The notes below the pieces were generated by a model. That model saw only the letters and a list, made by a program, of their open reading frames with translations. It did no database searches and was not told the DNA's origin. The translations under genes were made by a program, and so were the position numbers. Shown piece after piece: positions 26,977 to 57,938 of a DNA stretch of 64,000 nt. Every line of letters begins with the position of its first letter. Position 1 is the stretch's first letter. Source of the stretch: Halorubrum sp. 2020YC2 (GTDB lineage Archaea; Halobacteriota; Halobacteria; Halobacteriales; Haloferacaceae); the NCBI RefSeq assembly GCF_018623055.1, contig NZ_CP076019.1, positions 248,001 through 312,000 of the forward strand. The letters are read 5' to 3'.

Positions 26977-27360
26977 CGACGACTATTTATAAATCAACAC
27001 GCAGTCGGCGCGTGCCTGCGAGCGGCCGACAGGCCGCGAGCAGCACGCGCGAGGGACGCGGTGAGCGAGGGGCGACCGAAGGGAGCCCGGAGCGAACCGC
27101 GAGGCTGGGGAGGTGTGAGGCGCGGTCGCGGTACTGTGCGGGGTGGGACTCAAAGGGGCAGTCGCGAGGACGCCGCAGGCGACGTAAGCACTAGAGGGAG
27201 TGAGCGAAGCGAACGACCGAAGCGCGCAGCGAGCGTGCGGCGTCCTCGCGGCTGGGGCTTTGGCGGTGTTCGCCGTCGATCCGTCGGTAGCAGTTTATCC
27301 GTGAGCGGCTGAAGATTTGAAGGTGTTCGCCGGCGATTTGCGGTTAGTCATTTATAAATA
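26977..27360 (+). repeat. Dispersed structured element, copy B
   Basis: Same order as copy A, including the shared GCGACGACTATTTATAAA start. TATA at 26986-26993, hairpin 1 outer 5' arm 27008-27015, the second helix GCGGT/ACCGC, the conserved GAGGCTGGGGAGG stretch, stem arms 27159-27177 and 27236-27254 (18 Watson-Crick pairs plus one U-G on this strand), and the tail from 27248. A second diverged tail begins at 27305, exactly 57 bp on, preceded by TTTATCC and followed by ATTTATAAATAAG. It lies between pyk and thi4. No gene is supported in it. Confidence 0.8.
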
Positions 27361-28399: not shown

Positions 28400-28843
28400 T
28401 GTGTTTATACGCCGTGACTGTGAGACGGCGGCGAACACCGCCAAAGCCCCAGTCGCTCGGCGATACACAGACGCTACCGATACGAACACCGCCAAAGCCC
28501 CAGTCGCTCGGCGATACACAGACGCTACCGATACGAACACCACCAAAGCCCCAGTCGCTCGGCGATACACAGACGCTACCGATACGAACACCGCCAAAGC
28601 CCCAGTCGCGAGGACGCCGTACGCTCGCTGCGGTCCTCGGTCGCTCGCTCCGCTCGCTCCCTGCGGTCCTTGCGTCGCCTACGGCGCCCTCGCGACTGCC
28701 CCTTTGAGTCCCGCCCCGCACCGCTCCGCGCCTCACCCCTCCCCAGCCTCGCGGTTCGCTCCGGACTCCCTTCGGTCGCCCGTCGCTCACCGCGTCCCTC
28801 GCGCGTGCGACATCGCGCCCTGCGGGCGCTCGTCGGCACGCGC
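28400..28843 (-). repeat. Dispersed structured element, copy C, with multiplied tail
   Basis: Minus-strand orientation. Hairpin 1 starts at 28843 with arms GCGCGTGC/GCACGCGC and inner arms GCGCCC/GGGCGC. The 19-bp stem arms are at 28680-28698 and 28603-28621, with 18 Watson-Crick pairs and one G-U pair on the minus strand. The tail occurs four times. No TTTATAAA is found at the usual distance upstream, so the 5' end may be degenerate. The last tail runs straight into the TATA box of thi4. Short frames here are not genes. Confidence 0.8.
28441..28610. repeat. 51-bp tandem repeat (tail units of copy C)
   Basis: The minus-strand tail GCGACTGGGGCTTTGG recurs at an exact 51-bp period; its complement starts at 28441, 28492, 28543 and 28594. 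Units differ by at most a base or so until the last one. There are no variable spacers, so this is not CRISPR. The period is a multiple of three, which creates a spurious 17-residue repeat frame. Confidence 0.95.
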
Positions 28844-28908
28844 CACCGCCTCCATCACCCGCGTTCCATCGTCACTGCGGGCGTTCCCGACCGGCGCAAC
28901 TCGCAGCC

Positions 28909-41506: not shown

Positions 41507-41524
41507 GCCCCGCGGGAACCTTCT

Positions 41525-42159
41525 TCACTCCTCCGCGCGCGGCAGCGACACCGTGATCCGGTTTCCGCGCGTGCCATCGCCTCCTCGACGGCGGGGCGGT
41601 CGTCTGGGTGGATCGCGTCGAGGAACGCGCCGGGGTCGCCGCGGAGCCCCTCGACCGACGCGCCGTATATCTCCTCGTAGGCGGGGTTCGCGAAGAGGAG
41701 CTCAGCCCAGTCGGCGCTGAACATCCAGAGCACGTCGCCGGAGACCGAGGCGAGCCCCTCGAGGTGGGAGGCGGTCTCCGCGCGCTCGTCTTCCGCCCGG
41801 ACGCGGTCGGTGACGTCCCGCGAGCTGACCACGAACCCGTCGAGCGTCTCGTCGGTGAGGTTCGACATGCGGCTCTCCAGCCAGGCCCACGACCCGTCCG
41901 CGGTCCGGTGTCGGTACTCCGCGGTGACCTCGGTAAACTCCGCCGTCCGGACCGCCTCCTCGAACGTCCGCCGCACCGCCTCCCGGTCGTCCGGGTGCAT
42001 GTACTCGAAGGCGTTCGTCCCGACGAGCTCCTCGGGGTCGTAGCCCAAGGTCCGTTCGACGGCCTCGTTGGCGTACGTGTACCTCCCGGCGTCGTCCAAG
42101 AGGGCGACCTTGTCTTGGGCCTGGTCGAGCAGCAGCCCGAGCGGTTCGGACCCGTTCAT
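41525..42159 (-). pseudogene. PAS-domain histidine kinase remnant, kinase part deleted
   Basis: From ATG 42159 two PAS domains are intact: VALLDDAGRYTYANEAVERTLGYDPEELVGTNAFEYMHPDDRE, and DVLWMFSADWAELLFANPAYEEIYGASVEGLRGDPGAFLDAIHPDDRPAVEEAMAR. Just after the second, the frame goes out; in another frame the next codons read RGNRITVSLPRAEE and stop (41525-41527), which looks like the very end of a HATPase kinase domain. A large internal deletion joining PAS-2 to the kinase C-terminus explains this. The open frame otherwise runs on antisense into the reductase gene to 41239. The product cannot be a kinase. Confidence 0.65.
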
Positions 42160-42292
42160 TCCCCCATGTTCCCACGCGTACGCGCATAACCGTCACTACC
42201 GTCCGTGTCCGCCGGCGGTCACGGACGAACTACGGTACTCGAATGGACCACGGCGTGTCGGGACGCAATCGGACGGTCCGAGTGGACTCCGT

Positions 42293-42532
42293 TCAGTCGT
42301 CGCTCGCCGAGAGCGCCTCTCGAATCTCTTCCAGCTTGAAATACGATGCGAGACCGAGTATCGTCACGGGCCACAGACCGACGAACTGTCCGCGCTGCTT
42401 GTCGCCGCGCACGTAGTAGAAGTACAGCGCGAGCGCCACCGACCCCACTGACGCGAACACCGCGGGTCCGAGTCCGTCACTACCGACCTCTTCGACAACT
42501 TCGGCCGCCGTCTCTTCTGTTGTATCGCTCAC
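42293..42532 (-). CDS. Small two-helix membrane protein
   Basis: 79 residues: acidic N-terminus MSDTTEETAAEVVEEVG, then hydrophobic helices GPAVFASVGSVALALYFYYVRG (about 22-43) and FVGLWPVTILGLASYFKL (about 50-67), then an acidic end. No known family is recognised. It is one of three very small membrane proteins in this 750-bp stretch. Confidence 0.6.
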   Translation of the reverse strand: MSDTTEETAAEVVEEVGSDGLGPAVFASVGSVALALYFYYVRGDKQRGQFVGLWPVTILGLASYFKLEEIREALSASDD

Positions 42533-42621
42533 ATACGATAAACGCCCCAGACGGGGATATGTGTTTCCTTGGTGTGTGCCCTACTTCTGGCCGTATTCGT
42601 CTCACGTCGCCGGCGGCGGCG

Positions 42622-42744
42622 TCACGACGACCTCGACCGCTCGCTCCGAAACACGAGCACGAAGATCAGGACCGACAACACGATCATGACCGCCGCGAAC
42701 ACGCGCTCGTCGCCTATCACAGCGTCGACCGGATCTTGGAGCAT
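42622..42744 (-). CDS. 40-residue single-helix membrane micro-protein
   Basis: ATG at 42744, stop at 42622-42624. The product is MLQDPVDAVIGDERVF followed by a single transmembrane helix AAVMIVLSVLIFVLVFR and a basic/serine tail. Codon use and the clear helix support it, although it is very short. It is close in plan to the micro-protein at 42920 on the other strand. Confidence 0.5.
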   Translation of the reverse strand: MLQDPVDAVIGDERVFAAVMIVLSVLIFVLVFRSERSRSS

Positions 42745-42919
42745 ACTTCCGGTACGGCCCCCACGCTAATGTATCTCGGTATCAGCGACGAACGCGCTTC
42801 ATCCCCGTCAACACCGGCGACTCCGCACGAGCGGACGCCGTCGCTCGGACCGCCGACGGCCGGCCCACCTTCCCACGAACCGCACGAAACGATTTGAGGC
42901 CGCGGACCGTACCGGGAGC

Positions 42920-43033
42920 ATGCGTGACATTGACCCGGACGCGCTGATGTTGGTAGCGGGTGTGGCGATCTCACTGATCGCGCTCGTAGAGTTGTATCCG
43001 CTCTGGAAAAATCGGAGAGACGAACGACGGTGA
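42920..43033 (+). CDS. 37-residue single-helix membrane micro-protein
   Basis: ATG at 42920, TGA at 43031-43033. Sequence plan: acidic MRDIDPDA, one helix LMLVAGVAISLIALVELYPLW, basic end KNRRDERR. The topology rule (positive inside) is obeyed. The third small membrane protein of this stretch; function unknown. Confidence 0.5.
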   Translation: MRDIDPDALMLVAGVAISLIALVELYPLWKNRRDERR

Positions 43034-43157
43034 CGGCCGTCCCGCCCCGTCCGCACCGGGCCCGCATTCGGCGGCCACGGCGCACCGACTCTTCGACGGC
43101 CACGGCGACGGGCGTGCCGGTTATGAGCGCGGCGACGGGGGACCGGGCGGCGACCCT

Positions 43158-45008: not shown

Positions 45009-45132
45009 GCCACTCGGTTCCGCGCGCCGCGTGAAACCGTTTCGGGTGCCGGACCCTCGCCGCGGCGCGCGACCGGTCCGACCGGCGCGGGGTCGGCATT
45101 GCTCACCGCAGCCCCGCCGTCTCCCGCCCGGG

Positions 45133-45821
45133 GTCGCGTTAAGTTTGGCGTGAATTGTGGTAGACGGCGAAGGCTTCTAGCCAGTTTTGAGCTGTCTCTA
45201 GCGCGACATTGCTGAAACTATTCGCAAACGATGATGTTCGTCGTTCTATTTCCCAAAAGACACGTTCGATAGCATTCCGATTTCCATGTTGAATGACTTG
45301 AAATCGATAGCCGTCTTCATCGAGAACTGATCCGAGATAGTCTGCGTCATCGACGAGAAATTCCACGCTATCGAGCTGATAGCGCCGGTGAAGCTCGGTG
45401 AGAAACCATCGCGTCGTCTGTTTATTTGCGGTCGGATAGATACTCACGTGAAGGATCTCGTTCGTCTGCGGATCAACCGCGCCGTACAGCCAGAACTTCT
45501 GGCCGTGGAGGCGGATCATCTTTTCGTCAACCGCGATTTGATCCTCGGAGACGGTCGAGATCGGCTGTAGTTCGGCCTTATGAACCCAGTTATGGATCGC
45601 GACGTGACTCCGCTTGATCCCAAACAGCTCAAGATGCTTACTTACCTCTCGCAATGACATACCGGCCAAGTGACAGCGGATCCCTACTTCAATCGCCCAT
45701 CGCGGCGTTCGATCTCGCTCCACAAACGACAAGTCGATCCACGCGATACGTTCGCTGAGGCGCTCGGTTTCGGCCATAGACACTCTGAAGTCGAGCGCCT
45801 CATCCTCTAACTTAACGCGAC
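45133..45821. mobile_element. IS6-family insertion sequence
   Basis: About 690 bp containing one transposase gene. The outer ends are inverted: GTCGCGTTAAGTT (45133-45145) on the left and its exact complement (45809-45821) on the right, 13 bp, after which the ends diverge. IS6-type elements usually make 8-bp target duplications, but the flanks (cgcccggg and gccgcccg) are not identical, so either the ends are drawn slightly wrong or a duplication has been lost by recombination. It separates the S9 peptidase and glycosyltransferase promoters. Confidence 0.8.
45139..45783 (-). CDS. IS6-family transposase
   Basis: 214 residues, full length for the haloarchaeal IS6 group. The N-terminal HTH (GMSLREVSKHLELFGIKRSHVAIHNWVHK) precedes a DDE catalytic core: Asp86 in AVDEKMIRLHGQKFWLYGAVDP, Asp145 in EFLVDDADYL, Glu173 in RNAIERVFWEIERRT. 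All three acids are intact, so the element may still be active. GC content is clearly lower than in the neighbours, a sign of foreign origin. Confidence 0.92.
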   Translation of the reverse strand: MSMAETERLSERIAWIDLSFVERDRTPRWAIEVGIRCHLAGMSLREVSKHLELFGIKRSHVAIHNWVHKAELQPISTVSEDQIAVDEKMIRLHGQKFWLYGAVDPQTNEILHVSIYPTANKQTTRWFLTELHRRYQLDSVEFLVDDADYLGSVLDEDGYRFQVIQHGNRNAIERVFWEIERRTSSFANSFSNVALETAQNWLEAFAVYHNSRQT

Positions 45822-45871
45822 GCCGCCCGGATGCCGTGTCTTTTTACCGGCGCCCCCCGTGCGGTCGGCGT

Positions 45872-47649: not shown

Positions 47650-48053
47650 CCAATAAACGGCGACCGCCCCCGAAGCCCCAGCCGCTCGGCTGTCCGTGGT
47701 TGGTTATAAACCGACGAGCAACGCGACCGCTCTCGAAGCCCCAGTCGCGAGGCGGGCGCACGCTCGCTGCGGTCCTCGTTCGTTCGTTTCACTCACTCGC
47801 TGCGGTCCTTACGTCACCTGCGCCCGCCTCGCGACTGCCCCTTCGAGTCCCGCCCCGCACCTCACGCCTCCCCAGCCTCGTCGGACGCGTCTTCGGGCTC
47901 CCTTCGGTCGCCCTCGCCGCGCCGACTCCCTCGCGCGTGCTGTCTCGCGGCCGCCGAGGGCGGCCGCTCGCAGGCACGCAGGGAGGCGCGACGCGCCTCT
48001 TGCAGCCGGCGGCAGAGCCGCCGGCGACGCCGCAGCCTTGTTCATTTATAAAG
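47650..48053 (-). repeat. Dispersed structured element, copy D
   Basis: Minus-strand orientation. A TTTATAAA (48046-48053) is followed by two GC-rich hairpins (arms GGCGCG/CGCGCC and GCCGGCGGC/GCCGCCGGC-like) that in copy A lie inside the element; hairpin 1 then starts near 47980 with inner arms GCGGCCGCC/GGCGGCCGC. The 19-bp stem is perfect, arms 47819-47837 and 47742-47760. Tail units start at a 63-bp period, with TTTATAACC between them and TTTATTGG after the second. The region between halocyanin and mfnA holds no supportable gene. Confidence 0.8.
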
Positions 48054-56417: not shown

Positions 56418-57938
56418 ATGACGACCAACACACTACCCGAACGCCTGCTCGCCTGTCTCATCGTCGCGACCGTTGCGCTCGCCCCGCTCGCCGGCGGGGC
56501 GGCCGCGCTGGGCGCGAGCGCCGACGCCCCCGGTCCGGTCTCCGACGGCGCCGACGCGGCCGATCTCTCCGGCGCGTCGACGGCGGTCGAACAGACTGAG
56601 CCGGCGGGCGAACTGACATTGACCACCACCGACGAGGGCGACGACACGGTGACCGTGACGCTCTCGACGACCGTCGAGGACGTCGCGGGCTATCAGGCGC
56701 ACCTCACCTTCGACTCGAACGCGACCGCCGTGGTGAACGTCTCCGGCGGCGAGGGGGAGTTCGACGGCGACCCGGTGACGAACGTCGACAACGAGAACGG
56801 CACCGTCCAGTTCAACGCGATCGCCGGGAGCGCGCCGGACAGCGGTGTCGACGCCCCGACGATGGCGACGATCGTCTTCGAGACGCCGGACGCGCCGACC
56901 GACGTCGCGTTCGTCGCCGGGGACTCGCTGGTCTCGACGAGCGAACCCGAAGACGTCACCGACCTCACCCGGAACGGGGTCACGCTCGGCGGCGACGGAA
57001 GCGACGGCGGAGACGGCGGTGACGGCGGAGATGGCGGAGACGGCGGTGACGGCGGTGACGGCGGAGATGGCGGCGACGGCGGAGACGGCGGCGACGGCAG
57101 TGACGGCGGAGACGGCAGTGACGGCGGAGACGGTAGCGGCGGCAGCGATGGAAGCGACGGCGGCTCCGGCGGCGCGACGCCGCCGAGCGGCGACGACGCG
57201 CCCGCGGTGATCGAGGCAGAGGTCACGACCACGGACGGGGGCGCGACCCTGTCCGCGGCGGACGTCGACGCCGGTTCGACCGTCGAGGCGGACCTCGGTG
57301 ACGCGGTGGGCGACGAGGACGTCACGGTCGACGCCGTGTCGGTCGAGACCGCGGCCGCGGTCGACTCGCTCGACCTCGAGGCGCGCTCCGTCGGCTCCGG
57401 CGACCTGCCCGGGGACGCGCCGGCGCTCGACGGCGCCGACGCGGCCTCCTACTTCGAGTTCGCGGCCGACGGCGTCGCGTCCGACGCCGTCGCGAACGCC
57501 ACGGTCTCGTTCACCGCCGACGCCGACGCGCTCGGCGCGGCGCCCGAGGACGTTCGCCTGTTCCGGCTGGTCGACGGCGAGTGGACAGCCCTGGAGACGA
57601 CCCACGAAGGCGACGGCGTCTACACGGCCGAGACGCCCGGATTCTCGTACTTCGCCGTCTCACAGGTCGCGGCGGACGCGGACGATGGCTCGGCGGGCGA
57701 CGACGGCGACTCGGCGGCCGGCGGTGACGACTCGACCGACGGCGACGACGGCTCGGACGGTTCGGGCGACGCCGACGGCGACGGTTCGACGAGCGGCGAC
57801 TCGGAGAGCGGCGACGGAAGCGGCTCGTCGTCCGGCGGCGACGGCGGCCCGGTCCTCGAAGAGCAGACGCCCGGGTTCGGCGTGCTTACCGCGCTGATCG
57901 CGGCGGTCGCGGCTGCGCTGATCGCCCGGCGTCGCTGA
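56418..57938 (+). CDS. PGF-CTERM-anchored cohesin-like surface protein
   Basis: 506 residues from ATG 56418. Signal peptide 1-30; a cohesin-like domain (about 63-190: VTVTLSTTVEDVAGYQAHLTFDSNATAV, NVDNENGTVQFNAIAGSA); a Gly-Asp linker of GDGGDG repeats (191-252); a PGF-pre-PGF domain (about 262-416, ending TPGFSYFAVSQV); a second Asp/Ser/Gly stalk; and the archaeosortase signal TPGFGVLTALIAAVAAALIARRR (484-506). ArtA processing would lipid-anchor it to the cell surface. Its cohesin shares VAGY and VDNENGT motifs with the one in the preceding subtilase, marking the pair as a unit. Confidence 0.85.
   Translation: MTTNTLPERLLACLIVATVALAPLAGGAAALGASADAPGPVSDGADAADLSGASTAVEQTEPAGELTLTTTDEGDDTVTVTLSTTVEDVAGYQAHLTFDSNATAVVNVSGGEGEFDGDPVTNVDNENGTVQFNAIAGSAPDSGVDAPTMATIVFETPDAPTDVAFVAGDSLVSTSEPEDVTDLTRNGVTLGGDGSDGGDGGDGGDGGDGGDGGDGGDGGDGGDGGDGSDGGDGSDGGDGSGGSDGSDGGSGGATPPSGDDAPAVIEAEVTTTDGGATLSAADVDAGSTVEADLGDAVGDEDVTVDAVSVETAAAVDSLDLEARSVGSGDLPGDAPALDGADAASYFEFAADGVASDAVANATVSFTADADALGAAPEDVRLFRLVDGEWTALETTHEGDGVYTAETPGFSYFAVSQVAADADDGSAGDDGDSAAGGDDSTDGDDGSDGSGDADGDGSTSGDSESGDGSGSSSGGDGGPVLEEQTPGFGVLTALIAAVAAALIARRR
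57000..57160. repeat. GDG-repeat coding sequence
   Basis: Short tandem units of the type GGCGGAGATGGCGGTGAC encode the Gly-Asp linker of the cohesin protein. Synonymous variation between units argues for maintenance of the peptide. Such arrays are prone to length change. Confidence 0.85.

Follow-up and report, generated by a model that had tools for sequence, protein, structure and literature searches.

The short GA/GA hairpin that follows a TATA-like box at positions 26986-27060 of the window, i.e., the whole 64-kb stretch of Halorubrum DNA analysed here, corresponds to the 5' domain of an intergenic repeat of about 250-270 nt. With a probability of roughly one half, this repeat is regarded as a multicopy, non-coding and non-autonomous dispersed element of haloarchaea, the folded sense strand of which would be recognised, copied or moved. 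The element successively comprises (i) a first hairpin (H1), (ii) a variable second hairpin (H2), (iii) an invariant G-rich core, and (iv) a long third hairpin (H3), frequently followed by a tandem tail. Between H1 and the core, GAGGGA precedes H2, and the core CGAGGCTGGGGAGGYGTGAGG leads through a short variable stretch to GCGGGGYGGGACTCAAAGGGGC and then to H3, which is itself built of a CAAAG/CTTTG closure, a GGG/GGG internal loop, a stem of about 19 bp and apical 2-bp helices split by GA/GA loops. The element ends with CTGGGGCTTTGG, after which comes the tail with a further TATA-like box, and the whole is too short to code. Among aligned copies, the GGGG of the core is invariant (30/30) and entire helix types of H2 are exchanged from one copy to another.

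Copies A to D of the element lie in the window. Element B, on the + strand, occupies 27007-27265 for its whole core unit (C1:275007-275265 in the genome; 234.5 bits and E 6.7e-45 with R1, a covariance model built from 30 copies), with H1 at 27007-27050, H2 with its GA/GA loops at 27057-27101, the conserved core CGAGGCTGGGGAGGTGTGAGG carrying the first G tract at 27100-27120, and H3 at 27145-27265; its 3' tail of degenerate units extends over 27266-27358. Element A, also on the + strand, spans 306-601 (H1 306-348, core 433-453, H3 473-601; 172.7 bits) and exhibits a nested double-hairpin module in its H2 region (about 386-433). On the - strand, element C covers 28592-28844 (H1 from 28844 to about 28801-28795, core 28751-28731, H3 28712-28595; 212.7 bits) and is followed by a tandem tail of 51-nt units repeating GCGACTGGGGCTTTGG at 28432-28605, while element D, also on the - strand, covers 47731-47982 (166.3 bits) with H1 at 47981-47927, the 5' side of this hairpin being interrupted by another nested double-hairpin module (47983-48036, ends approximate; second hairpin 48002-48028). 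Other repeats occur in the window, namely an inverted pair of 84 nt (52070-52153/58263-58346), 88% complementary, 6.1 kb apart and unrelated to the element, as well as a GGNGAC-rich run of 9-nt repeats at 56951-57192, which encodes a Gly/Asp/Ser-rich stretch within the called gene 56418-57938.

In element B, H1 reads GCGCGTGC, a bulged C (27016), TGC, GA, GCGGCC, GACA, GGCCGC, GA, GCA and GCACGCGC, the outer arm pairing 27008-27015 with 27043-27050 and the GA at 27020-27021 facing that at 27038-27039. The box and the hairpin described by the first-pass annotation are thus both present, and the distances it gave from the start of TTTATAAA to the start of GCGCGTGC (307 and 27008) are exact, i.e., 25 nt in A and 22 nt in B. 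The common plan it proposed for A, B and C holds overall, except that C has an extra T after the 3' GA, so that GA faces GAT; as for D, which was said to keep the motif with a longer inner helix, the 5' side of its H1 is broken by the insert of about 60 nt. On a larger scale, the compensated helix changes are borne out, with 9/17 pairs of H1 changing on both sides, and so is the constancy of GA/GA, which is found in strict register in 93/118 distinct H1 sequences, with a 1-nt offset of the 3' side in most of the others. Across these 118 sequences, the 3-bp helix occurs as TCC/GGA (35), GAC/GTC (18), TGC/GCA (10), GGT/ACC (6), GAT/ATC (4) and other variants. The covariation score of H1 amounts to 0.299 against 0.093 +/- 0.012 in shuffles, none of the 500 shuffles being as high.

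The tandem G-A pairs of this hairpin had been proposed as a target of the L7Ae type. A kink-turn requires an asymmetric loop, where a 3-nt bulge sits beside tandem GA. While tandem G-A pairs in a hairpin are common to both, H1 displays a symmetric 2x2 loop with no 3-nt bulge, and its lone bulged C, present in 118/118 distinct sequences, stands three pairs away; because the loop is symmetric and not a kink-turn, the L7Ae reading finds no support in the sequence. GA/GA 2x2 loops recur through H2 and H3, an average element having 2.97 of them and its shuffles 0.33, i.e., a ninefold enrichment, and therefore appear as a general building block rather than a dedicated binding site.

The fold extends well beyond H1. 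Across several families, 27 of the 36 pairs of the H3 domain are double-compensated and 95.9% of cells are paired, compared with 31-44% in slid controls, and the covariation of H3 reaches 0.623 versus 0.182 in shuffles. Even its closing helix is swapped, from CTCAAAG/CTTTGGAG in Halorubrum to CTGAAAG/CTTTCGAG or CTGGAAG/CTTCCAAG elsewhere. As such, compensatory base changes exceed controls, as expected of a structured RNA gene. Regarding the strand, the mean folding energy is -141 kcal/mol for the sense sequence, -117 for the antisense and -120 for dinucleotide shuffles; the sense strand is the more stable in 92/92 copies, and it alone outfolds shuffled sequence. Sense G-U cells number 68 against 9 for A-C, an invariant U-G column supplying 30 of them. 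It is clear that the sense strand is under selection for one particular fold.

The host genome is a single contig of 3.06 Mb, in which GGGRCTCAAAGGGGC occurs at 146 places with at most one mismatch, compared with none for the reversed control, and R1 scores at least 150 full-length places. Copies are carried by all 34 congeners searched. Beyond the genus, R1 matches 58/99 genomes of the order and 26/42 of the haloarchaeal genera sampled, several genera of other families having about 20 or more scored copies and the copy number between genera ranging from none or few to about 150, where the counts outside Halorubrum are lower bounds because R1 was trained on this genus. Named records with the exact motif belong to Halorubrum and to the uncultured archaeon A07HR67. 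Outside haloarchaea, no match was returned in the phylum sample searched with R2, i.e., a model restricted to the H3 domain; likewise, the phage records searched held no match to the element, and IMG/VR contigs with the short motif gave no covariance model match. Against Rfam 15, nothing in the window rose above the gathering threshold, the best permissive match scoring 14.7 bits for a cut-off of 40, and a tRNA/tmRNA search returned none. No description was found in the literature searched, also by motif letters, in which subscription journals were thinly covered, so that an earlier account is possible.

Copies do not stay put over evolutionary time. Among 19 relatives, the gap upstream of thi4 contains an intact, a truncated or a reversed element, or none at all; a second locus has it on the - strand in several species, on the + strand in three and partially in one, and lacks it in at least one species that retains the neighbour gene; at a third locus, it is present in one clade and absent from others. 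Positions are often common to related species and turnover is apparently slow, and copies up to 94% identical within one genome have unrelated flanks. This pattern is one of dispersal, decay and exchange between copies; of note, gene conversion among copies could produce a similar picture. These three loci were searched for clean empty sites and target duplications, but their flanks were too diverged to give exact ends. Copies are also located on plasmids in Halobaculum, Halorussus and Halorubrum salinarum, and only one Halorubrum plasmid record shows a match. Active haloarchaeal transposons usually prefer plasmids.

The spacing of neighbouring copies is peculiar. Copies less than 2.5 kb apart are nearly always converging (9/11, with none diverging; e.g., in the host genome, C1:275007/276592, 596648/597619 and 2638331/2639559), and such close pairs are fewer than expected from a uniform distribution (11 vs 17.6). 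A composite transposon was considered and rejected, since converging pairs bracket single housekeeping genes and not cargo; from their sequences, we take these genes to be cysS, SRP54, msrA, hisA, thi4 and a phosphoribosyltransferase. In other haloarchaeal genera, the element also forms head-to-head inverted dimers, 10-75 nt apart (L197 2765-3238; L289 1228-1651; L295 270-750; G060:C1:138840-139179 and 2511595-2511857). One segmental duplication (L014/L015; C1:2520749 and C1:1413328), which is recent and no shorter than 2 kb, has one of its breakpoints upstream of a copy at a distance of a few hundred nt, and a copy of the element may have been used as the recombination site or have lain near it.

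The nested double-hairpin module noticed in A and D is itself a repeat of about 50-60 nt, consisting of a variable palindrome plus GGCAGCCGG..CCGGCGAC, and is encountered elsewhere in the genome, e.g., at C1:563050, 1057309 and 2661384. An exact-pattern search retrieved 31 of them in the genome, 22 of which lie within 80 bp of a large element, when large elements with 80-bp margins cover about 2% of the genome; the module looks like a second-tier mobile repeat targeting the large element. As for the tail (that of C plus 95 arrays at other loci), its tandem units measure 57, 54, 51, 48, 63, 69 or 72 nt with a highly variable middle, and 134/137 unit spacings are multiples of 3, possibly in part by chance given the few independent length changes. 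A coding tail was discarded, as stops are as frequent as chance predicts in all frames and conservation is not 3-periodic.

The TATA-like boxes bear on whether the folded strand would be made as RNA. TTTATAAA occurs five times in the window, each time beside an element, namely at 282-289 (upstream) and 630-637 (downstream) for A, 26986-26993 (upstream) and 27351-27358 (at the end of the tail) for B, all on the + strand, and at 48045-48052 on the - strand for D, upstream and beyond the insert. The first-pass annotation had placed a promoter box before H1, which stands for A and B with their fixed distance but fails for C, where no TATA box is present. YTTATAA occurs within 90 nt upstream in 54/105 copies, compared with about 0.018 per 90 nt on one strand of control intergenic DNA, and its position peaks sharply at 13-14 nt before GGCGCG; a downstream TATA-like box, just as well placed, is found in 64/103 copies, peaking 25-29 nt after the end of H3, and both boxes are present in 44 copies. 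In measured promoters of Halorubrum coriense, the AT motif has position -26 relative to the start of the transcript (PMC8707807), from which starts are predicted near 306-308 in A and 27010-27012 in B. A transcription start at the foot of H1, as initially anticipated, or 2-4 nt inside is plausible from this spacing. The boxes may instead be flank or target sequence, resulting from insertion beside such sites, because both ends are flanked and about half of the copies have no upstream box.

Promoter-like boxes are also what would be expected if the many copies all encoded a single structured non-coding RNA, acting in trans within a ribonucleoprotein (RNP) and maintained by the host through selection on the pool of copies. 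This main rival of the dispersed element is a serious one, though held to be a good deal less probable. The unpaired core is deeply conserved across families, with the consensus AnUnnAAGGGGC...GAnGnAAGnAC...CnCAnCnAG...GGGGCUU, and all four G tracts occur together in 81/92 copies, while chromosomal positions are shared vertically. Hypothetically, the core could form a G-quadruplex, possibly with potassium, which is molar in the haloarchaeal cytoplasm; yet, when the option is allowed, a quadruplex is chosen in just 10/40 predicted folds. An RNA particle also sits uneasily with a copy number that falls to none or few in some genera, with copies that decay, vanish or flip orientation at the same site, and with an upstream box in only half of the copies. 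It is doubtful, and a step less credible again, that the element represents an as yet unregistered, haloarchaea-wide RNA family, in which an RNP would be produced from up to about 150 dispersed genes per genome, combine GA-stacked helices with a potassium-stabilised G-quadruplex of four invariant G tracts, and have spread without reverse transcriptase or known transposase.

How the element would move brings in the next alternative, i.e., a single-stranded DNA element of the IS200/IS605 type, where the fold of the sense DNA would be recognised by a Y1 transposase, as for the palindrome-associated transposable elements (PATEs) abundant in Haloquadratum (PMC3119063). The two ends of the element (GCGGTGGCGCG... 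and ...GGGGCTTTGGAG) do not form an inverted repeat, the aligned copies having no terminal inverted repeats of the MITE type between them, and the palindromes H1 and H3 lie near these ends. With DNA energies, the strand-specific fold has the same direction (-77 vs -68), which makes RNA and single-stranded DNA indistinguishable on this ground. Y1 transposases are encoded in 26/33 Halorubrum genomes, but the seven others still carry many copies; moreover, the covariation runs the whole length, far beyond terminal hairpins, and no IS605 copy with the ends of the element turned up beside copies in the loci examined, so this explanation is considered unlikely. A SINE-like retroposition by the RVT_1 family was rejected, as RVT_1 was detected in 0/33 Halorubrum genomes with positive search controls, which leaves no such source there.

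That the element serves its neighbours in cis, as a regulatory leader, a riboswitch-like element or a transcription terminator, would agree with an intergenic, structured sequence flanked by TATA boxes. In the stretches around copies covered by the context analysis, where genes were called by a simple codon-usage method that had the window as its training set, none of 101 elements overlaps a gene. Convergent gaps hold 46 of them, co-directional gaps 35 and divergent gaps 20; the convergent class is enriched relative to the background of the same loci, which were chosen for containing elements. Orientation to the neighbours is nonetheless random, with 19 vs 16 in co-directional gaps and the 20 divergent gaps, the neighbours are unrelated housekeeping genes and the sites are not conserved among relatives, all of which renders a cis-regulatory role very improbable. 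By the same gene calls, the window is 84% coding, and 41507-43157 and 45009-45871 are nearly free of called genes. Finally, chance hairpins in an ordinary repeat of a G+C-rich genome, i.e., without selected structure, are refuted by the covariation of H1 and H3 against both shuffled and slid controls, the observed value being reached in 0/500 shuffles, and keep next to no probability.

Returning to the dispersed element, the proposed scheme is that the sense strand folds as H1 - H2 - invariant G-rich core - H3 and that this folded strand would be what some machinery recognises, copies or moves. It would most likely be a protein-bound RNA transcribed from the TATA box in the flank, a single DNA strand being the alternative; we infer its transcription, a protein that binds it and a machinery that moves it. 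The element would then enter gaps between genes in either orientation, persist through inheritance and exchange among copies, and decay by deletion.

Several known repeats offer points of comparison. BOX and RUP of Streptococcus pneumoniae are likewise modular, structured and intergenic repeats, where the internal part varies in copy number. They differ in sequence and host, and the present element combines TATA boxes and a tandem tail with an unpaired core that is long and conserved. The PATEs of Haloquadratum walsbyi, the ends of which resemble IS605 transposons, share with it a haloarchaeal host, a non-coding nature, many copies, an intergenic location, the lack of terminal inverted repeats and palindromes near the ends; unlike these IS605-like ends, the whole 250 nt or so covaries here as one strand-specific fold, and no IS605 link was found (PMC3119063). 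The small mobile repeats SMR-A resemble the nested module in being short, palindromic and inserted into another repeat family, whereas the module is different in sequence and shorter, and its host element is no IS605 relative (PMC3119063). In the halovirus HF2, intergenic promoter repeats of 29-58 bp are of the TATA type and, as such, like the element in being TATA-bearing haloarchaeal intergenic repeats, but they are viral and without a large fold (PMC8707807). In kind, the element is closest to PATEs and BOX-type repeats, and its whole-length, strand-specific and covarying fold sets it apart.

Such an element would rank among the most numerous structured elements of any archaeal chromosome, yet it is absent from Rfam and from the literature searched, and its covariation gives it a firm secondary structure. 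If transcribed, it raises the question of its binding protein and of the route to 150 copies without reverse transcriptase; if not transcribed, it would mean that the folding of single-strand DNA alone can be strongly selected.
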